Assembly (NCBI GenBank): GCA_028867435.1
Contig: JAGWGI010000007.1
Span: forward strand, 1-48,154
DNA from: Microcaldota archaeon
Lineage (GTDB): Archaea; Micrarchaeota; Micrarchaeia; Micrarchaeales; CABMGC01
Length of the DNA: 48,154 nucleotides
Direction of reading: 5' to 3'
The notes beneath the pieces were generated by a model. The model did no database searches. It saw only the letters and a list, made by a program, of their open reading frames with translations, and was not told the origin of the DNA. Both the position numbers and the translations under genes were made by a program. The stretch's first letter is position 1, and every line of letters begins with the position of its first letter. Of the stretch, positions 14,291 through 26,933 are shown one piece after another.

Positions 14291-15376
14291 ATGAAAGACA
14301 GAGAGCATAGCATCACACTCATACCTGGGGACGGGATAGGCTACGAGGTGAGCGCAGCGGCGCAGAGCTGCGTGGATGCAATAGCATCGCTGGAGGGGTT
14401 CATAGTAATCTGGGACGAGCAGCAGGCGGGTGGGGATGCAATGAGAGAGTTTGGAAACGTGCTTCCAGAAAAAACGCTAAATTCGATAAGGAAAAGTGGC
14501 GTAGCGCTAAAAGGGCCTATCACCACCCCGATAGGCAAGGGATTTCGCAGCGTTAACGTTGAACTGCGCCAGAAGCTCAATCTCTTTGCAAACATAAGGC
14601 CAGCAAAGAGCATTGTAGGAGCAAGCAGCAGGTACAGCGGCATTGATATTGTAGTGATAAGGGAGAATACCGAGGATCTTTACGCAGGAGTTGGGTTTGA
14701 GAAGGGAAATGGGGACACCAAGCAGTTCATAAACTTCGTGAACAAGAAGAGGGGAACCTCGATCACAGAGGACAGCGCAATAAGTCTCAAGATAATTTCC
14801 TCGCATGCAAGCGCAAGGATAGCAAGGTTCGCATTCGATTATGCAAACCAGAACGCAAGGAAGAAGGTCACGGTTGTGCACAAGGCGAACATACTTAAGT
14901 ACACAGACGGGCTCTTTCTAGATGTCGCAAGGCGCATCTCAAGGGGACATATGTCCATAGAGTTCGATGATGCGATTGTTGATAATGTCTCAATGCAGCT
15001 TGTGACAAAGCCAGAGAACTATGATATTCTCCTCTGCCCCAATCTGTATGGAGATATACTCTCCGACTTATGCGCAGGGCTTATTGGCGGGTTGGGAGTG
15101 GCACCAAGCGCGAACATAGGAGAGAAATGTGCTGTATTCGAGCCAGTCCATGGCAGTGCGCCGAAACATGAAGGCAAGAACGATGCCAACCCCAGCGCGA
15201 CAATACTGAGTGCTGCAATGATGCTAAAGCACATAGGCGAGAAAAAGGCCTCGGCAAGGCTTGAGAAAGCAGTACTCAAAACGATCAGGGAAGGAAAGGT
15301 GGTGACATACGACCTTAAGCCAAGGAAGGTCTCAACAACAAAGGAGATGACGGGCGAGATAATCGATAATTTGTGA
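14291..15376 (+). CDS. icd: Isocitrate/isopropylmalate dehydrogenase family, most like NAD(P)-isocitrate dehydrogenase
   Basis: LIPGDGIGYEVS; LRQKLNLFANIRPAKS; RENTEDLYAGVGFEKG; KANILKYTDGLFLDV; FEPVHGSAPKHEGKNDANPSATILSAAMML. Confidence 0.88.
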   Translation: MKDREHSITLIPGDGIGYEVSAAAQSCVDAIASLEGFIVIWDEQQAGGDAMREFGNVLPEKTLNSIRKSGVALKGPITTPIGKGFRSVNVELRQKLNLFANIRPAKSIVGASSRYSGIDIVVIRENTEDLYAGVGFEKGNGDTKQFINFVNKKRGTSITEDSAISLKIISSHASARIARFAFDYANQNARKKVTVVHKANILKYTDGLFLDVARRISRGHMSIEFDDAIVDNVSMQLVTKPENYDILLCPNLYGDILSDLCAGLIGGLGVAPSANIGEKCAVFEPVHGSAPKHEGKNDANPSATILSAAMMLKHIGEKKASARLEKAVLKTIREGKVVTYDLKPRKVSTTKEMTGEIIDNL

Positions 15377-15382
15377 TAAGAG

Positions 15383-16741
15383 ATGAGTATAGCCAGGGAG
15401 ATTGCACAATATGCGCATTCGATCCAGTTCGCAGACCTGGATAAGGAGACTATCAACGCTGCGAAGAGGGTGATAGTTGATGTGATGGGCTGCGCGATAG
15501 GAGCCTCAGATGAAAGGCCAGTTGCAATAGCAAGGGAAGCTGTCTATGCAGGCAGTTGGGGGACAGCTACGCTGCTTGGCACGCGCCAAAAAACCTCGCC
15601 TGACATCGCGGCATTTGTGAACGGACTCGCGGCAAGATACTTTGATTACAATGACGGATACGAGAACATGGAGTTCGCGCATCCAAGCGACAACATACTC
15701 CCGCTTATGGCAGTCGCTGAATCGTCCAAGCGCAACGGCAAGGACCTGATTCTGGCAACGGTAATAGCATATGAGATCCAGTGCAGACTGTGCGATGCGG
15801 CGAGCCTTTGGAGGCGAGGATGGGATCATGTAAGTTATGGGCTTGTCTCTGTGAGTGCAGCCGCTTCGAGGCTGATGTGGCTAAGCACTGAGCAAACTGA
15901 GCAAGCAATCAACATAGCGCTAAGTTCGCATATAACCCTAAGGCAGGTGAGGGCAGGAGAGCTTTCGATGTGGAAGGCAGCCTCATTTGCAAATGCAGCA
16001 AGGAACGCAGTATTCTCTGCGATGCTAGCGGGCAAGGACATGACAGGGCCATCCCCGATATTTGAGGGGGAGATGGGATTTTGGAAGGAGGTATCGGGAA
16101 AGTTCAAACTCAATCTCAGAAGTTTTGGAAACAGAAGAAACAGGTTCAGAATAACCCAAAACATACTCAAGTATTTCCCTGCTGAGATAAGATCGCAAAG
16201 CGCAATCTCTGCTGCGCTCAGCGCCAGAAAGCATTTCTCATCAATAGATGAGATATCAAGTGTTGAGATAGGGACTACGGAAAGCGGCTACAAAATCTTG
16301 GGCAAGGACCCTGAGAAGTGGGACCCCAAGACAAAGGAGACGGCAGACCACAGCCTACCATACATAGTCGCAGTTGCGCTAATGGATGGACGAATAGACA
16401 ACAATTCCTATCTTAGGAAGCGATTTCGGGAAAAGAAAACCCTAAAGTTCATGAAAAAGATAAGCGTAAAGGAGAAGGCGAATTTGACTGCAATGTACCC
16501 AAGATGCATACCAAATGAATTGACAATACGGCTCAGGAGCGGCAAGAGCATACGTGAAAAAGTGCTCTATCAAAAAGGGCACCAGAAGAATCCTATGAGC
16601 AATCAGGAGATAGAGGAGAAGTTTTCAAAGCTGACAGGAAAGTTCCTGAACAAAGCACAAAAGCAGAAGATACTACAGAACCTTTGGAACTTGGAAAAGG
16701 CCAAGAGCATGGGCTCTGTGATCCCAGATTACAGAATTTGA
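15383..16741 (+). CDS. MmgE/PrpD family protein (2-methylcitrate/citrate dehydratase-like)
   Basis: FVNGLAARYFDYNDGYENMEFAHPSDNILPLMAVAE; MWKAASFANAARNAVFSAMLAGKDMTGPSPIFEGEMGFWKEVSG, the MmgE/PrpD signature. Confidence 0.92.
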   Translation: MSIAREIAQYAHSIQFADLDKETINAAKRVIVDVMGCAIGASDERPVAIAREAVYAGSWGTATLLGTRQKTSPDIAAFVNGLAARYFDYNDGYENMEFAHPSDNILPLMAVAESSKRNGKDLILATVIAYEIQCRLCDAASLWRRGWDHVSYGLVSVSAAASRLMWLSTEQTEQAINIALSSHITLRQVRAGELSMWKAASFANAARNAVFSAMLAGKDMTGPSPIFEGEMGFWKEVSGKFKLNLRSFGNRRNRFRITQNILKYFPAEIRSQSAISAALSARKHFSSIDEISSVEIGTTESGYKILGKDPEKWDPKTKETADHSLPYIVAVALMDGRIDNNSYLRKRFREKKTLKFMKKISVKEKANLTAMYPRCIPNELTIRLRSGKSIREKVLYQKGHQKNPMSNQEIEEKFSKLTGKFLNKAQKQKILQNLWNLEKAKSMGSVIPDYRI

Positions 16742-16754
16742 TACTTGTGATACG

Positions 16755-17582
16755 ATGGAGAAAAAAGCATTTGATTTTCTGAAAATATACGAACTGCCAA
16801 AGAAACCCAGAAAGAAGGGGATTACCGAGATAAGAGTACCCTACTATGCTGCTACCCCAACAATGACCTATATTGCCGACCTTCTCGATTCATGGAGCGA
16901 TTATTTCGATGGGATGAAATTTGCCTGCGGGACGCAGAGGCTGATTGACAGCGGGAAAGTGAGGAAAATAATAAGGCTCTGCCATGAGCACGACGTTTAC
17001 GTCTCGACAGGGGGATTCGTGGAAAGGGTGCTGGTGCAGGGAAAGCAATCTGTCGACAGGTACTTCAAGGAGTGCAAAGGGCTAGGATTTGACGTGATAG
17101 AGATCTCAAGCGGATTTGTGAATGTGAGCATAGAGGACAGACTGGCAATGGTCAAGAAGGTGAGCGACATGGGAATGAAGCCAAAGCCAGAGGTCTCGAT
17201 GATGCTTGGCGCAGGGGCAGGAACCCACATTGTTGGATACAAAACCCGTATGAAGAGCATGGAGGAATTCTTCAGCGAGGCAAAGGCATACATTGATTCC
17301 GGTGCGGAGATAATAATGGTAGAGTCTGAGGGGCTGACCGAAGACCTTCCGCCAAAGAAATGGAGGCTGGACGTGATAAGAAAGCTTATCAGGAAGTTCG
17401 GTCATGAGAGGTGGATGTTTGAGGCAGCAGATCCAGAGGTATTCAAGTGGTACTACAAGAATGTGGGCAGGGAGGCCAACTTATTCATAGACCATACGCA
17501 GGTTGTGGAGTTTAACGCATGGAGGCTGGGGCTGTGGGGAGACCAGAAAATCTGGGGGAACAAGCGATATGCGTACAGGTGA
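16755..17582 (+). CDS. ComA (phosphosulfolactate synthase)-family TIM-barrel protein
   Basis: Resembles ComA/HSA32 proteins: GMKFACGTQRLI, CHEHDVYVSTGGFVERVLVQ, YFKECKGLGFDVIEISSGFVNVSIEDR, EVSMMLGAGAG, AEIIMVESEGLTEDL, FIDHTQVVEFNAWRLGLWG. Confidence 0.82.
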   Translation: MEKKAFDFLKIYELPKKPRKKGITEIRVPYYAATPTMTYIADLLDSWSDYFDGMKFACGTQRLIDSGKVRKIIRLCHEHDVYVSTGGFVERVLVQGKQSVDRYFKECKGLGFDVIEISSGFVNVSIEDRLAMVKKVSDMGMKPKPEVSMMLGAGAGTHIVGYKTRMKSMEEFFSEAKAYIDSGAEIIMVESEGLTEDLPPKKWRLDVIRKLIRKFGHERWMFEAADPEVFKWYYKNVGREANLFIDHTQVVEFNAWRLGLWGDQKIWGNKRYAYR

Positions 17583-18269: not shown

Positions 18270-18297
18270 CTTATATATTATAATGTTATAACATTAT
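18270..18297 (+). promoter_or_regulatory. TATA-like box abutting an 18-bp perfect palindrome ATAATGTTATAACATTAT (18280-18297), likely RHH operator
   Basis: Palindrome read directly; located 16-33 nt upstream of the RHH gene start (18313) and contiguous with cttatatatta. Confidence 0.7.
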
Positions 18298-18312: not shown

Positions 18313-18558
18313 ATGACAAGGAAAAGGATGGCACCAAAGCGCAAGTACACGACCATAACGATACCCACAATCCTCTTCGAAAGGATGAAGGCAAGCATAG
18401 AGAATGCGGGTTTCTCATCGGTATCCGACTATGTGACGTTCATACTGCGCGAGACTACCGCTAAACTCAGCAATGCAAAGGTGAAAAAGGCAAAGGGCAG
18501 CAAAAGCAAAGAGGAGGGGGAGATCATCGACAAGTTAAGGGCGCTTGGATATATTTAA
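18313..18558 (+). CDS. Ribbon-helix-helix (CopG-like) transcriptional regulator
   Basis: YTTITIPTILFERMKASIENAGFSSVSDYVTFILRETTAKL, an RHH fold pattern; C-terminal EIIDKLRALGYI. Confidence 0.8.
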   Translation: MTRKRMAPKRKYTTITIPTILFERMKASIENAGFSSVSDYVTFILRETTAKLSNAKVKKAKGSKSKEEGEIIDKLRALGYI

Positions 18559-18563
18559 GTGGT

Positions 18564-18860
18564 TTGATGGCAAAGCCAAAAATTGAAGAGATAGCTGAAA
18601 AGCTCTGGAAGGACCAGAGCGAGGACAACTGGAAGATACTTGCAGATGTGGTAAAGGGGGGAAACATCAAGTACTATAAGGTGTTTTTTGAGAAGAAGAG
18701 CAAGCTCAACAAAATTGAGGATTTAAGGAAGTCCTATGCAGAACTCTACGACCGCAAATACAGGAGCATCGTGAAGGTGCCCATTTTCAAGAAGGACAAG
18801 AGGGGGATTGAGGGTGCCACAATATACCTCAAGGGGCTGATGATAAACAACAGGGTGTAA
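18564..18860 (+). CDS. Small hypothetical protein in the CysDN operon
   Basis: 98 aa ORF between the RHH and cysD genes with intergenic gaps of only a few nt. Confidence 0.65.
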   Translation: MMAKPKIEEIAEKLWKDQSEDNWKILADVVKGGNIKYYKVFFEKKSKLNKIEDLRKSYAELYDRKYRSIVKVPIFKKDKRGIEGATIYLKGLMINNRV

Positions 18861-18862
18861 TT

Positions 18863-19651
18863 ATGATATCGCAGGATCTCAAGAGCTTGGAGGAAAAGAG
18901 CATATATGTAATAAGGGAAGCTAAGATAAAGTTCCCGAAGATAGCGGCGCTCTGGAGTATGGGTAAGGATTCAACTGCAATGCTTGCGCTAGCCAGGAAG
19001 GCTTTCCTCGGGAAGGTTCCTTTCCCAGTAATCCACATAGACAACGGCATTGACTTTCCAGAAACGTACAAGTTCAGGGAGGAGCTTGCAAAGAAGTGGA
19101 AGCTGGATCTGATAGTGCCAAAGAGTGAGATAAAGCCCGAGTTGTCGGGATTTGCCTGCTGCGGTGCAAACAAGACAGTTGCGCTAAAGAAGGTCATGAA
19201 GTCGTACGGGTTCGATGCGCTCATAGTCTCGATAAGAAGGGATGAGCACGGGATAAGGGCGAAGGAGAGGTACATGAGCCCTAGGGACAAGAACTTCAAG
19301 TGGGACTACAAGGACCAGCCTGCTGAGCTCTGGGATGATTACTCTTCAAAGCTCGACACAAAGGGCCATATAAGGGTGCATCCGCTTCTGGACTGGAATG
19401 AAATCGATATCTGGAACTTCATAAAGAAAGAGAAGGTGCCGATGAATCCGCTCTATTTCGCAAGAGATGGACACAGGTACAGGAGCCTTGGCTGCTTGCA
19501 TTGCACCGTACCTTTGAAGTCGAAAGTAAAAGATATAAATGGCATAATAAGAGAGCTCGAGACCACAAAGATTGAGGAGAGAAGTGGGAGAGAGCAGGAC
19601 AAAGAAAAAGCTTACGTGATGCAAAAATTAAGAGCATTGGGATACATGTGA
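18863..19651 (+). CDS. cysD: Sulfate adenylyltransferase subunit 2-like (CysD, PAPS reductase/ATP pyrophosphatase family)
   Basis: ALWSMGKDSTAMLALARKAFLGKVPFPVIHIDNGIDFPETYKFREELAKKW; RYRSLGCLHCTVPLKSK; C-terminal TTKIEERSGREQDKEK...MQKLRALGYM resembling the CysD tail; followed by cysN. Confidence 0.85.
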   Translation: MISQDLKSLEEKSIYVIREAKIKFPKIAALWSMGKDSTAMLALARKAFLGKVPFPVIHIDNGIDFPETYKFREELAKKWKLDLIVPKSEIKPELSGFACCGANKTVALKKVMKSYGFDALIVSIRRDEHGIRAKERYMSPRDKNFKWDYKDQPAELWDDYSSKLDTKGHIRVHPLLDWNEIDIWNFIKKEKVPMNPLYFARDGHRYRSLGCLHCTVPLKSKVKDINGIIRELETTKIEERSGREQDKEKAYVMQKLRALGYM

Positions 19652-19655
19652 TCCT

Positions 19656-20879
19656 ATGATCATAAAGAACATAACACTGTTAGGCCACAAGGACCACGGC
19701 AAATCGACACTGATAGGCAACCTCCTGATCCAGACTAAATCGGTAACTCCTGCCAGGATAAACGAGGCAAAGAAGACAAGCAAAAAGCTGGGCAGGCAGT
19801 TCGAGCCTGGCTACATCCTTGACAGCTTCTCTGAAGAGCGCGAGCAGGAGATGACAATAGACACCACTAGGGCAGAGATGGCCTACAAGGACCTTGCCTT
19901 CGCCTTTATCGACGTGCCTGGGCATGAGGAGCTGATAAAGAACATGATAAGCGGAGCTTCGTATGCTGAGATAGCGCTACTTATGGTTTCTGCAAAGAAG
20001 GAGGAGGGGATAAAGGATCAGACCAAGCGCCATCTATTCATAGCGAAGATGCTTGGAATCAACAAGCTCATAATCGCTGTCAACAAGATGGACCTGGTCG
20101 GCTATAGCGAAGATAGATTCAATCAGATTAGGAAGGAGCTTGGAGGATTCATAGCAAAGATCGGGTTCAAGGCCTCAAACTTCTACTTCGTACCCGTTTC
20201 TGCTTACAACGCAGACAACCTGATCAAGAAGAGCGGGGATATGTCCTGGTACAAGGGCAAGCCCCTTGTGGAACTGCTCTACGAGCAGGCGAAGATGGAG
20301 GACAAGCGTAAGTCCACTGCACCGCTTAGGATAGTGATACAGGGAGCAATAGAATCGGGGAGGCAGACAGTAGTTGGAAAGGTGATAAGCGGCAGGGTCA
20401 AGACAGGAAGCATGGTTAGCATTCTTCCGTTTGGATACAAAGCTAGGATAGAATCAATAGTAGTGAAAGGAAAGAAGGCAAAGAGCGCTGGGCTGAGCGA
20501 CGACGTTGCACTCACTTTTGAAAGCAGGGTTTCTGGGAATCTGAGGGGTACTGTTGTGGCTGAGGGCGGGGAGGCGCCAAAGTTGACAGACAAGATAAAT
20601 TCTCTCATTTTCGTAACAGGTGGGATAAAAAAGCCGCTCAAACTCAGGATAAATGGCAACGAAGTGAAGTGCAAGGCCCTTGAGATAGCAGAACAGGTTG
20701 ACACAACGACTGGCGATGCCAATGAAAAGAAGGGTGCAGAAGTACTCAATGCGGTGCGTGCAAGGATAGTGCTTGAGAAGAAGGTGCCTATTGAGGACTT
20801 CGATGAGGTCAAGGAGCTTGGCAGGTTCGTGCTCTATGGCAACAACAAGTTTGCTGGGATAGGGATAATATCTCCCTAG
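19656..20879 (+). CDS. cysN: EF-1A/CysN-like translational-type GTPase, probable sulfate adenylyltransferase subunit 1
   Basis: GHKDHGKSTLIGNLL (G1), DVPGHEELIKNMISGASYAEIALLMVSA (G3), NKMDLVGYSEDRF (G4), VPVSAYNADNL (G5); gap of 4 nt from cysD. Confidence 0.82.
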   Translation: MIIKNITLLGHKDHGKSTLIGNLLIQTKSVTPARINEAKKTSKKLGRQFEPGYILDSFSEEREQEMTIDTTRAEMAYKDLAFAFIDVPGHEELIKNMISGASYAEIALLMVSAKKEEGIKDQTKRHLFIAKMLGINKLIIAVNKMDLVGYSEDRFNQIRKELGGFIAKIGFKASNFYFVPVSAYNADNLIKKSGDMSWYKGKPLVELLYEQAKMEDKRKSTAPLRIVIQGAIESGRQTVVGKVISGRVKTGSMVSILPFGYKARIESIVVKGKKAKSAGLSDDVALTFESRVSGNLRGTVVAEGGEAPKLTDKINSLIFVTGGIKKPLKLRINGNEVKCKALEIAEQVDTTTGDANEKKGAEVLNAVRARIVLEKKVPIEDFDEVKELGRFVLYGNNKFAGIGIISP

Positions 20880-23621: not shown

Positions 23622-25148
23622 CTATCTGCCCTTGGAGGCGTAGTACTTGAGTATGGCTGGCGCAATCGAGGCGAGACCGCCCCCCTTTGCGATATATATG
23701 CTGCCATTGTATTCGCCGAAGATCCCCATTCTGGTGTGGTCCCCGCTTTTGAAGAGCTCAGGCTTCATGAACATCGACTTGAGTGAGAAGTACTTAACGT
23801 CTATTGTGTAGCCCTTCTTGCCCTCAGCAAATATGTCTGCTGGGATGAATTTTCCGGTGTTGCCGTAGTACTTCTTCGCATCAATCACGTTTGCAAAGAG
23901 CTTATCGCCCTCCCTGCTCTTGACTTGCCTTAGCTTTTTGATTATCTCATTCTTGAGTCTCTGCTTCTCTTCCTTGCCGACTACTCCGCTTGTAAACCTT
24001 CCATCGTTTATCCAGATTGTCCCGACATCCAGGTTTGAGATTGCTGCAAAGGCCCTGGTCTTTTTCATGTCAAGGTCGTAGAGGTGTATGTGCGAGTAGT
24101 CCTCGCTTGAGATCTTTGAGAAGAACGATGCTGAGAGATTGTATACATGCTTCTTGAGCCCATAGGGCATGCTGTCATAGACCTTTCTTAGCCTGGTTGT
24201 CAGCAGTTTCTCTCTCAGAACGTACCTGAGTGGCATCTTCGATGATCCCTTCTTCTGCCCCTTGAGATCCTTTTGCACCGAGTCCTTGAATACTGCGTAA
24301 CCGCTATCGATCAGGAAGGTGTTTATCAGGAACTTGCTTTTCACTGGCTGCGCGCCGTGGTCTGATATGATTATTAGCGCTGCACCCTCCTTTTCTGCCC
24401 GCCGCATTGCATAGCCCACAAATGAGAATATCTCGCGGTAGATTGGGAGCAAGTACTCCTTGCACTTTGGGTTGTTTAGGGTTGCGTGCTGGAGCCTGTC
24501 GGTTTCAGTGAAGCAGACGTACACGAAGTCGTAGTCGTGCCTCTCCATCATCTCCTTTGCAATGCTTGCGCGCTTTGCCACGCTCTGTGCGAACATCTTG
24601 GAGCCCTTCTCGATAGTCATCCTGCCGGACTTCATGAACTTCTCTATATCGGGCTCTCCGAAGAAATCGTGCTTTTGCATCATCTGCTCGAGCTCTTTGG
24701 TGTTCGCTTTAGATCTGAGCGGGAAACCGGTTATCATCTCCACATTCGGGGTGTTATCTATTCTGGTCTGCATGGCAGGTGTTATTAGAAGGCACTTGCA
24801 CCCCGACTCTGCAAGCTCGTCCCAAAATGGCCTGCACGAATCCGAATCGAAGAATGCTATGTCCGGGGTGTAGTCCCTTTTCATGTAGAAGAAGTCCGGA
24901 ACACCGTGGACGCTCGGCTGCTTTCCAGTGTAGATTGTGGGCCATGCTGGTCCTGTCATCGGAGGCATTGTCGATTCAATTTCGCGGAGCCTTCCCTTTG
25001 AGATGAAATTTTTGAGCGGCTCCATTCCCTTCTCATTCTTGGACTGCTCTAGTATCCACAGTGCCGCGGAGTCTATTCCCACCATGTACAGCTTCTTTTG
25101 CCTATTTTGCTTTCCTTGCTTACTGTTTCTTTTGGACAAAAAAGTCAC
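23622..25148 (-). CDS. Alkaline-phosphatase superfamily type I phosphodiesterase/nucleotide pyrophosphatase
   Basis: YMVGIDSAALWIL; TMPPMTGPAWPTIYTGKQPSVHG (nucleophile region); DFVYVCFTETDRLQH; ALIIISDHGAQPV. Confidence 0.88.
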   Translation of the reverse strand: MTFLSKRNSKQGKQNRQKKLYMVGIDSAALWILEQSKNEKGMEPLKNFISKGRLREIESTMPPMTGPAWPTIYTGKQPSVHGVPDFFYMKRDYTPDIAFFDSDSCRPFWDELAESGCKCLLITPAMQTRIDNTPNVEMITGFPLRSKANTKELEQMMQKHDFFGEPDIEKFMKSGRMTIEKGSKMFAQSVAKRASIAKEMMERHDYDFVYVCFTETDRLQHATLNNPKCKEYLLPIYREIFSFVGYAMRRAEKEGAALIIISDHGAQPVKSKFLINTFLIDSGYAVFKDSVQKDLKGQKKGSSKMPLRYVLREKLLTTRLRKVYDSMPYGLKKHVYNLSASFFSKISSEDYSHIHLYDLDMKKTRAFAAISNLDVGTIWINDGRFTSGVVGKEEKQRLKNEIIKKLRQVKSREGDKLFANVIDAKKYYGNTGKFIPADIFAEGKKGYTIDVKYFSLKSMFMKPELFKSGDHTRMGIFGEYNGSIYIAKGGGLASIAPAILKYYASKGR

Positions 25149-26850
25149 CTATTGCAAGATACTGCGCACCAGTATTTAGAAGTGTCCATACAGCATCTTC
25201 CGGATCCATGGCTATCGGCTTGCCATGTTTGTTTAGGCTGGTGTTGAGCACTGCGCCCACTCCTGTTTCTTTTCTCACTTTTTTTATCAGCTTCCTGTAG
25301 AGCAAGTTCTCGCTTCCCAGTATCTGTGGCCTTGTGGTGCCGTCTATGTGAGATGCCGCCACCAGGTCTGCAAGGTGCTCCTTTTTTACCCTATAGCCAG
25401 TAGTCATGAATCTGTTCTCTCGCTTGTACGGGTCAAGCAACTTTTCTGCGTCCTCCTCGAGTATGGTGCTTGCAAATGGCTGGTAGTATGGCCTTCTCTT
25501 GATCACAATGTTTGCCATGTTCCTATTATCCGGATTGCCCGCAAGTGCAAGAACGCTCCTGCAGCCAAGTCCCCTTGGCCCGTATTCCATCCTTCCCTGA
25601 AACCAGAGCACAATCTTGTTCTCATCAAGCATGGTTCCTGCAGCGTGCGAGGCTATATCTTTGGTCTCTTCGTACCTTATTGTCCCAAGCTTTGAATGCT
25701 TCTTGAGCACCTCTTCTATCTGCGAATTGGTGTACTCTGGCCCGTAATAAAGATTGTCAATCTGTTTCTTGTTGAACTTGCCGTTTTGTTCATAGTCTAC
25801 ATAATATGCGGCACCTATCGGCAGGCCTCCGTCACCCATGTGGGGGAACACGAAGAAATCCTTTACTTCTGGCATCTGGTTTATCATCATGTTGACTATT
25901 ATGTTAGAGAAGAACCCTCCCGAAACCGCGACATTGCTTATTCCGGTTTCCTTCATGTGCTGCCTTATTATCTTGAGGACCTGCTCCTCAACATGCCTCT
26001 GAACCCCGTAGGCAAAAGCCTCCCTATTGTACTTCCAGAGAAGGTGATCCTTCATGTACTCGGCCAGCAAGAACTCGAACTTCTTGCCGCTTTTGCTCAC
26101 CAACTGCCTCTTTTTCTCATCGTAATGGCACAGGTCATAGAGTTCCTTGACTTCAGATGGGTAGGAGTAGGCTGCAAGGCTCATCAGCTTGCCCTCATCC
26201 TCGCTGTACCTTAAATCGCACGCGATTGTCGCTGCGCCGTAGAGTATGCCTATGCTTGCGCTTGCCCTGAACTCGTTTATCCTCTTGAGCTCGCCCCCGT
26301 GGCCCACGGAGATGGAGCCGCTCAGCCCATCCCCTGCGCCGTCGATTGTTATGACAAGGGCGTCCTTGAAGCCTGATGCGTAGTAAGCTGTAGCCGCGTG
26401 TGCGGTGTGGTGGTCAACAAAAACCAGCTCCTTATCTATACCAACAGAGCCGAGCCTGCGCCGCATCACCAAGCTGCCCATCGCCTTGCCCGCTGCCCTC
26501 CAGGCCCATCTGGGCCTCTGGTCTTGTATTGCCTTGAAGAACAGGTTCCTAATCCTCATGCCGGGCCTTGATGGCTTTGCGACCTCATGCCTCCAGAGCT
26601 TTCTTCTTTTTGTCTCAAGGAAGGGGAAAACCCTTGCAAATAGCGCGCTGCCCCCGATCCACGGTATCGCTATCTTCTCTATCTCCTCCAAATCCTCAGT
26701 CTTGAGAAGATATCTTATAGAATTTAGGGGAAAGCCCACGTCGTTCTTTAGCTTTGTGAACCTCTCCTCGTTTGCTGCCCCGATCACCTTTCCGGAGCTT
26801 ATCAGACCTGCGCCTGCATCGTGAGCATCGTGAACGCCTAAGATTGACAT
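25120..26850 (-). CDS. Carbamoyltransferase, NodU/CmcH/TobZ family
   Basis: MSILGVHDAHDAGAGLISSGKVIGAANEERFTKLK; DHHTAHAATAYYASGF; GGFFSNIIVNMMI; GRMEYGPRGLGCRSVLA; N-terminal extension in the ORF track to 26883 is unlikely. Confidence 0.92.
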   Translation of the reverse strand: MSILGVHDAHDAGAGLISSGKVIGAANEERFTKLKNDVGFPLNSIRYLLKTEDLEEIEKIAIPWIGGSALFARVFPFLETKRRKLWRHEVAKPSRPGMRIRNLFFKAIQDQRPRWAWRAAGKAMGSLVMRRRLGSVGIDKELVFVDHHTAHAATAYYASGFKDALVITIDGAGDGLSGSISVGHGGELKRINEFRASASIGILYGAATIACDLRYSEDEGKLMSLAAYSYPSEVKELYDLCHYDEKKRQLVSKSGKKFEFLLAEYMKDHLLWKYNREAFAYGVQRHVEEQVLKIIRQHMKETGISNVAVSGGFFSNIIVNMMINQMPEVKDFFVFPHMGDGGLPIGAAYYVDYEQNGKFNKKQIDNLYYGPEYTNSQIEEVLKKHSKLGTIRYEETKDIASHAAGTMLDENKIVLWFQGRMEYGPRGLGCRSVLALAGNPDNRNMANIVIKRRPYYQPFASTILEEDAEKLLDPYKRENRFMTTGYRVKKEHLADLVAASHIDGTTRPQILGSENLLYRKLIKKVRKETGVGAVLNTSLNKHGKPIAMDPEDAVWTLLNTGAQYLAIGDFFVQKKQ

Positions 26851-26933
26851 CAAAGAACCTGAAGAAGAAATCCCGAAAAACATTACTTTTTATAGTTTAA
26901 ATACTTATCTAGGAAGAGAGGGCAGGGGGTCAA

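Follow-up and report, generated by a model that had tools for sequence, protein, structure and literature searches.

Why should a small DNA-binding protein and a metabolic enzyme, encoded two genes apart in the same archaeal operon, end in almost the same peptide? The question is raised by the window analysed here, a stretch of 48,154 nucleotides from a genome of 1.05 Mb. The relatives of this genome belong to Candidatus Micrarchaeota, with Ca. Micrarchaeum sp. A_DKE among the named ones, alongside many MAGs. Its operon opens with a ribbon-helix-helix (RHH) regulator of 81 residues (18313–18558, plus strand), followed on the same strand by a 98-residue protein, p98 (18567–18860; 97 residues from the ATG at 18567), by CysD, the ATP sulfurylase small subunit (18863–19651), and, directly 3' of the latter, by a CysN-like GTPase of the EF-1alpha/CysN family (19656–20879). 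CysD is identified by its NF003587 profile score (295 bits against a cut-off of 195), by 1zun_A as its best Foldseek match and by the cysN-like gene that follows it; the GTPase itself falls under the curated cut-offs of both its families (for TIGR02034, 244.8 bits against 336). The second gene, p98, belongs to no Pfam or toxin family that could be matched, and its homologs (alignment A5) were seen in Micrarchaeota loci only, in most but not all operons, being absent between RHH and CysD in L126, L127, L129, L131 and L133. Genes for a ComA-like phosphosulfolactate synthase (PF02679), an isocitrate/isopropylmalate-type dehydrogenase and a PrpD-like dehydratase adjoin the operon (16755–17582 and 14291–16741).

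The RHH protein ends in ...EIIDKLRALGYI and CysD in ...YVMQKLRALGYM, each immediately before its stop, so that KLRALGYI (18532–18555, plus strand) faces KLRALGYM (19625–19648, plus strand). The original prediction, which had placed these tails correctly on either side of the p98 gene and described them as alike at the protein level, is borne out: among the 1275 pairs that the window's 51 predicted genes can form this is the only one exceeding 4/7 C-terminal identity, at 7/7, and six of the eight aligned tail codons differ, so that the likeness is no recent DNA copy and a recent duplication of the tail is ruled out. Within 81 loci, C-terminal identity of at least 5/7 was reached by 54 of 9117 gene pairs, in all of which both tails contain GY. 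Scanning for the strict pattern L-x-[AS]-L-G-Y-[LIMVF]-stop as degenerate DNA returned exactly two matches in the source genome, RHH and CysD, and 60 across 60 related genomes, 58 of them again RHH or CysD; of the remaining pair, one closes a 212-residue ORF in a genome lacking both genes, and the last is noise. A control pattern with F in place of Y (LGF) gave four matches against these 60, only one of which ends a real ORF, and this rules out the tail as a generic C-terminus. The worry that such a tail might be found on unrelated proteins is justified in part, as APS kinases and some sulfatases carry it (see below). The likeness between the two tails is genuine and ancient.

Conservation of the tail among RHH orthologs, on which the original prediction depended, was found as well. 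In 49 genomes in which both tails could be read, RHH showed L..LGY and CysD L..[LFMI]GY without exception (49/49 each), and residues L75, L78, G79 and Y80 are invariant in the 39 RHHs of alignment A1, making the tail as constrained as the DNA-binding core. In CysD the alignments show M253, L256, R257, G260 and Y261 to be invariant, and the tail aligns right up to the final column of the CysD profile and to the end of the CysD from P. syringae (1zun), a homologous C-terminus that likewise closes with GY plus one residue but reads ..MEEKKRQGY. and lacks LRALGY. Of the 325 residues in the sequence of that protein, the solved chain contains 204, and its tail may therefore not be visible. AlphaFold monomer models predict a helix followed by LGY for both tails (residues 66–77 and then LGYI in RHH), with low confidence for that of CysD. 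The two ends differ in one respect: CysD is fixed at GY[MLF]-stop, whereas RHH proteins continue for 0–5 varied residues past the tyrosine. No within-genome covariation of the two tails was detected (p=0.10), for which reason gene conversion or co-evolution between them was rejected. CysD-like paralogs in L153, L186 and L196 keep the tail, with no CysN detected beside them. A second RHH subfamily, of the FTSVSIP type (G039, G040, G047 and G050–G057), also ends in LxxLGY and lies mostly on the strand opposite to cysD.

Assignment of the first gene to the RHH family draws on several modest matches (alignments A1 and A3). Pfam RHH_1 is detected in 9 of 71 orthologs with a best E-value of 2.8e-4, the window's own copy not being matched; a profile comparison finds the RHH domain of NikR (E=0.009); and the best Foldseek matches are RHH proteins (ParD, NikR, Arc), all weak and none below E=0.9. 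A strand-helix-helix fold and a sequence match to RHH models are thus both present. Upstream of the gene lies a perfect 16-bp palindrome, TAATGTTATAACATTA (18281–18296, no strand; family consensus TAATGTNNNNACATTA), set between a TATA-box-like element read by eye from the sequence (18271–18279, plus strand) and the RHH start codon, and occurring just once in the whole source genome. The motif TAATGTN4ACATTA was found 5' of RHH exactly in 59 of 78 loci, with at most one mismatch in 69 and with at most two in 76, while shuffles gave 0, 0.2% and 2.3%, respectively. It also occurs exactly in a Hermodarchaeota locus (L166) and in L191, and as the close variant TAATGCN4GCATTA in L163 and L193; most of the remaining Asgard loci, and the haloarchaeal RHH loci, did not yield it. 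In one relative (G007, C18:8484–8499) a second exact copy is located between cysD and cysN. RHH and CysD were each found in 52 of 60 relatives and travel together, with 51 genomes carrying both, one RHH alone, one CysD alone and seven neither (p=1.6e-7). The proposal that RHH regulates this operon is well served by the putative operator and by this co-occurrence, and comparison across genomes firmly establishes a conserved pair of predicted regulator and putative operator at archaeal sulfate-activation genes. A conserved palindrome at the regulator's own promoter is most naturally read as autorepression, and RHH is probably the repressor of its own sulfate-activation operon. The findings point to a regulator and putative operator for these genes in Micrarchaeota and at least some Hermodarchaeota; a literature search, from whose reach subscription papers were mostly excluded, returned no RHH regulator of archaeal ATP sulfurylase or sulfate activation.

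In organization the system recalls the autorepressors NikR, Arc and ParD of the RHH (MetJ/Arc/CopG) superfamily, sharing with them a short N-terminal strand and two helices, a place as first gene of the operon and a palindrome, here the putative operator, over the promoter region. Unlike these proteins, RHH here has no ligand domain, its C-terminal part consisting of a linker and the LxxLGY helix, and it is linked to sulfate activation. The small size of RHH and of the protein of about 97 residues behind it, together with the weak Foldseek matches to ParD, might suggest a toxin-antitoxin pair of the ParD/ParE kind in which the likeness to CysD is incidental. This is very improbable, as no toxin family matches p98, several Micrarchaeum-type operons and the Asgard operons that retain RHH do without it, and RHH tracks sulfate genes; the reading was rejected for want of a recognisable and always co-encoded toxin.

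The tail extends beyond the two Micrarchaeota proteins. Asgard RHHs of the same family share their operons with a phosphodiesterase and an ATP sulfurylase of the single-chain kind (Sat), in most cases joined by an APS kinase. In four such Sat-operon genomes (three of Hermodarchaeota type and the Thermoproteota-labelled genome of L172), MAGs of unstated completeness, no protein reached the CysD family cut-off, three of them giving only weaker matches of the wider family, and their RHHs still end in [LR]RALGYLD. All five haloarchaeal plasmid homologs of RHH end in LxxLGY, each within less than 5 kb of a sulfatase gene, and one of six sulfatases whose tails were read at such RHH-adjacent loci carries the tail itself. 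Strict scans placed the tail on real ORFs of 22 RHHs and three sulfatases in Asgard genomes, and in 29 genomes of the L172 phylum six of seven matches were real, five being RHH and one CysD. Among APS kinases at other Asgard and L172-phylum loci, 9 of 12 end in LGY or shortly past it (five LxxLGY and four AxxLGY). In one case (L153), a p98 homolog (2379–2741) bears an extra C-terminal extension, ...KEELMRQKLSALGYM, ending ...MRQKLSALGYM, so that the tail stands on a third operon protein; no true CysD was seen downstream of it.

What, then, is the tail for? The reading that we favour, tentatively and at a little under even chances, is that RHH is an autorepressor whose tail serves its own assembly, that the tail of CysD is a separate matter, and that the two owe their likeness mainly to convergence on one helix-stop sequence. 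Bound to TAATGTN4ACATTA, a putative operator marked out by its conservation that separates the TATA-like element from the start codon, RHH would block transcription of RHH-(p98)-cysD-cysN, as the operator position and the precedent of known RHH repressors suggest. Its LxxLGY tail would form a terminal helix that a Gly-Tyr cap brings to a stop (L-x-x-L-Gly-Tyr has the look of a Schellman-type helix cap), and would have served this RHH family as a contact element since ancient times, being apparently kept whichever ATP sulfurylase the operon encodes. Its likeliest use would be in repressor assembly, where two dimers, bound to half-sites spaced by about one turn of the DNA helix, would need a dimer–dimer contact, and CysD would have its own ancient GY-ending tail, probably for its own fold or dimer. 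We infer tetramer binding and repression alike, the structural models being those of monomers. Several findings favour this account: the tail persists in Sat operons, in the haloarchaeal homologs and in the four genomes without CysD above the cut-off; it is conserved as strictly as the DNA-binding residues, does not covary with that of CysD and has a variable end where CysD's is fixed; and the putative operator, shared with Hermodarchaeota, the co-occurrence of RHH with CysD, the CysD-like paralogs that keep the tail with no CysN detected beside them and the helix-then-LGY prediction for both tails agree with it. Against convergence stands the outcome of the strict scans in three archaeal groups, where, with few exceptions, each protein bearing the tail is an RHH, a CysD or a sulfatase.

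That same outcome invites another reading, which we consider possible but lean against, namely that LxxLGY is a contact signal carried throughout the pathway by RHH, CysD, APS kinase, some sulfatases and once p98, and read by a common partner (an adaptor, protease or scaffold), which would coordinate the assembly or turnover of regulator and enzymes. The company kept by the tail in each scanned group, the many Asgard APS kinases that end in LGY, the tail gained by the L153 p98 homolog and the scarcity of LGF matches all speak in its favour, but candidate partners are patchy, four genomes having no CysD above the cut-off, APS kinase being absent from Micrarchaeota and p98 having been seen only in loci of the latter, and the varying RHH terminus and the single tailed sulfatase among six in haloarchaea weigh against it as well. 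Indeed, APS kinase was rejected as common docking partner for Micrarchaeota, where searches in the source genome and other members found only P-loop noise. More doubtful still is the stronger proposal that LxxLGY constitutes an archaeal sulfate-metabolism recognition signal on repressor and enzymes, through which a shared partner would couple transcription to sulfate-activation capacity. If the tail were a pathway signal rather than a product of convergence, it would link a repressor with the enzymes under its control by simple means.

The docking mechanism of the original prediction, put here as an RHH tail that mimics that of CysD and binds CysN or CysD itself, coupling operator release to enzyme assembly, is unlikely. 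Operon linkage, near-identical tails and co-occurrence with CysD are in keeping with it, and there is a documented precedent in sulfur metabolism, where the C-terminal tails of CysE and CdiA-CT compete for CysK by inserting their last residue (Ile) in the enzyme pocket (PMC5562914). As there, two unrelated sulfur-metabolism proteins have a common C-terminal peptide; unlike there, the RHH terminus is variable, and some of the genomes with the tail yielded no match to its presumed target. No fixed terminal residue common to both tails exists, since CysD stops at GY[MLF] and RHH may run up to five residues further, and the absence of covariation points the same way. The tail is retained in Sat operons, in genomes that yielded no CysD above the cut-off and, in Micrarchaeota, without any APS kinase, which implies that docking on CysD or on APS kinase is not its general role; nor is such a role on CysN supported, and the RHH tail probably does more than serve as an anchor for CysD.

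Returning to the repressor reading, its reach may extend beyond ATP sulfurylase. On the minus strand of the window lies a type I phosphodiesterase (PDE) of the alkaline phosphatase superfamily (23622–25148, PF01663), homologs of which occur in the Asgard RHH-Sat operons and, in two relatives, behind the same operator: in G014 (L322) and G036 (L321) an exact copy precedes a gene for a YgjP-like metallopeptidase and then one for a type I phosphodiesterase. The latter genome, an 80% complete MAG, has the operator, with RHH and CysD not found. From this placement, the predicted RHH regulon probably includes the phosphodiesterase in some species. Agl30 and Agl31, haloarchaeal proteins of the same superfamily as this PDE and the sulfatases near these RHHs, are annotated like sulfatases and were shown to be sulfotransferases acting in archaeal glycan sulfation, the passages concerned describing no regulator (PMC11980604). 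By analogy, they would fit a sulfation role for the putative PDE here. A carbamoyltransferase-like ORF recognised by eye (25120–26883) overlaps the start of the PDE gene, an arrangement suggestive of a glycan-modification cluster.
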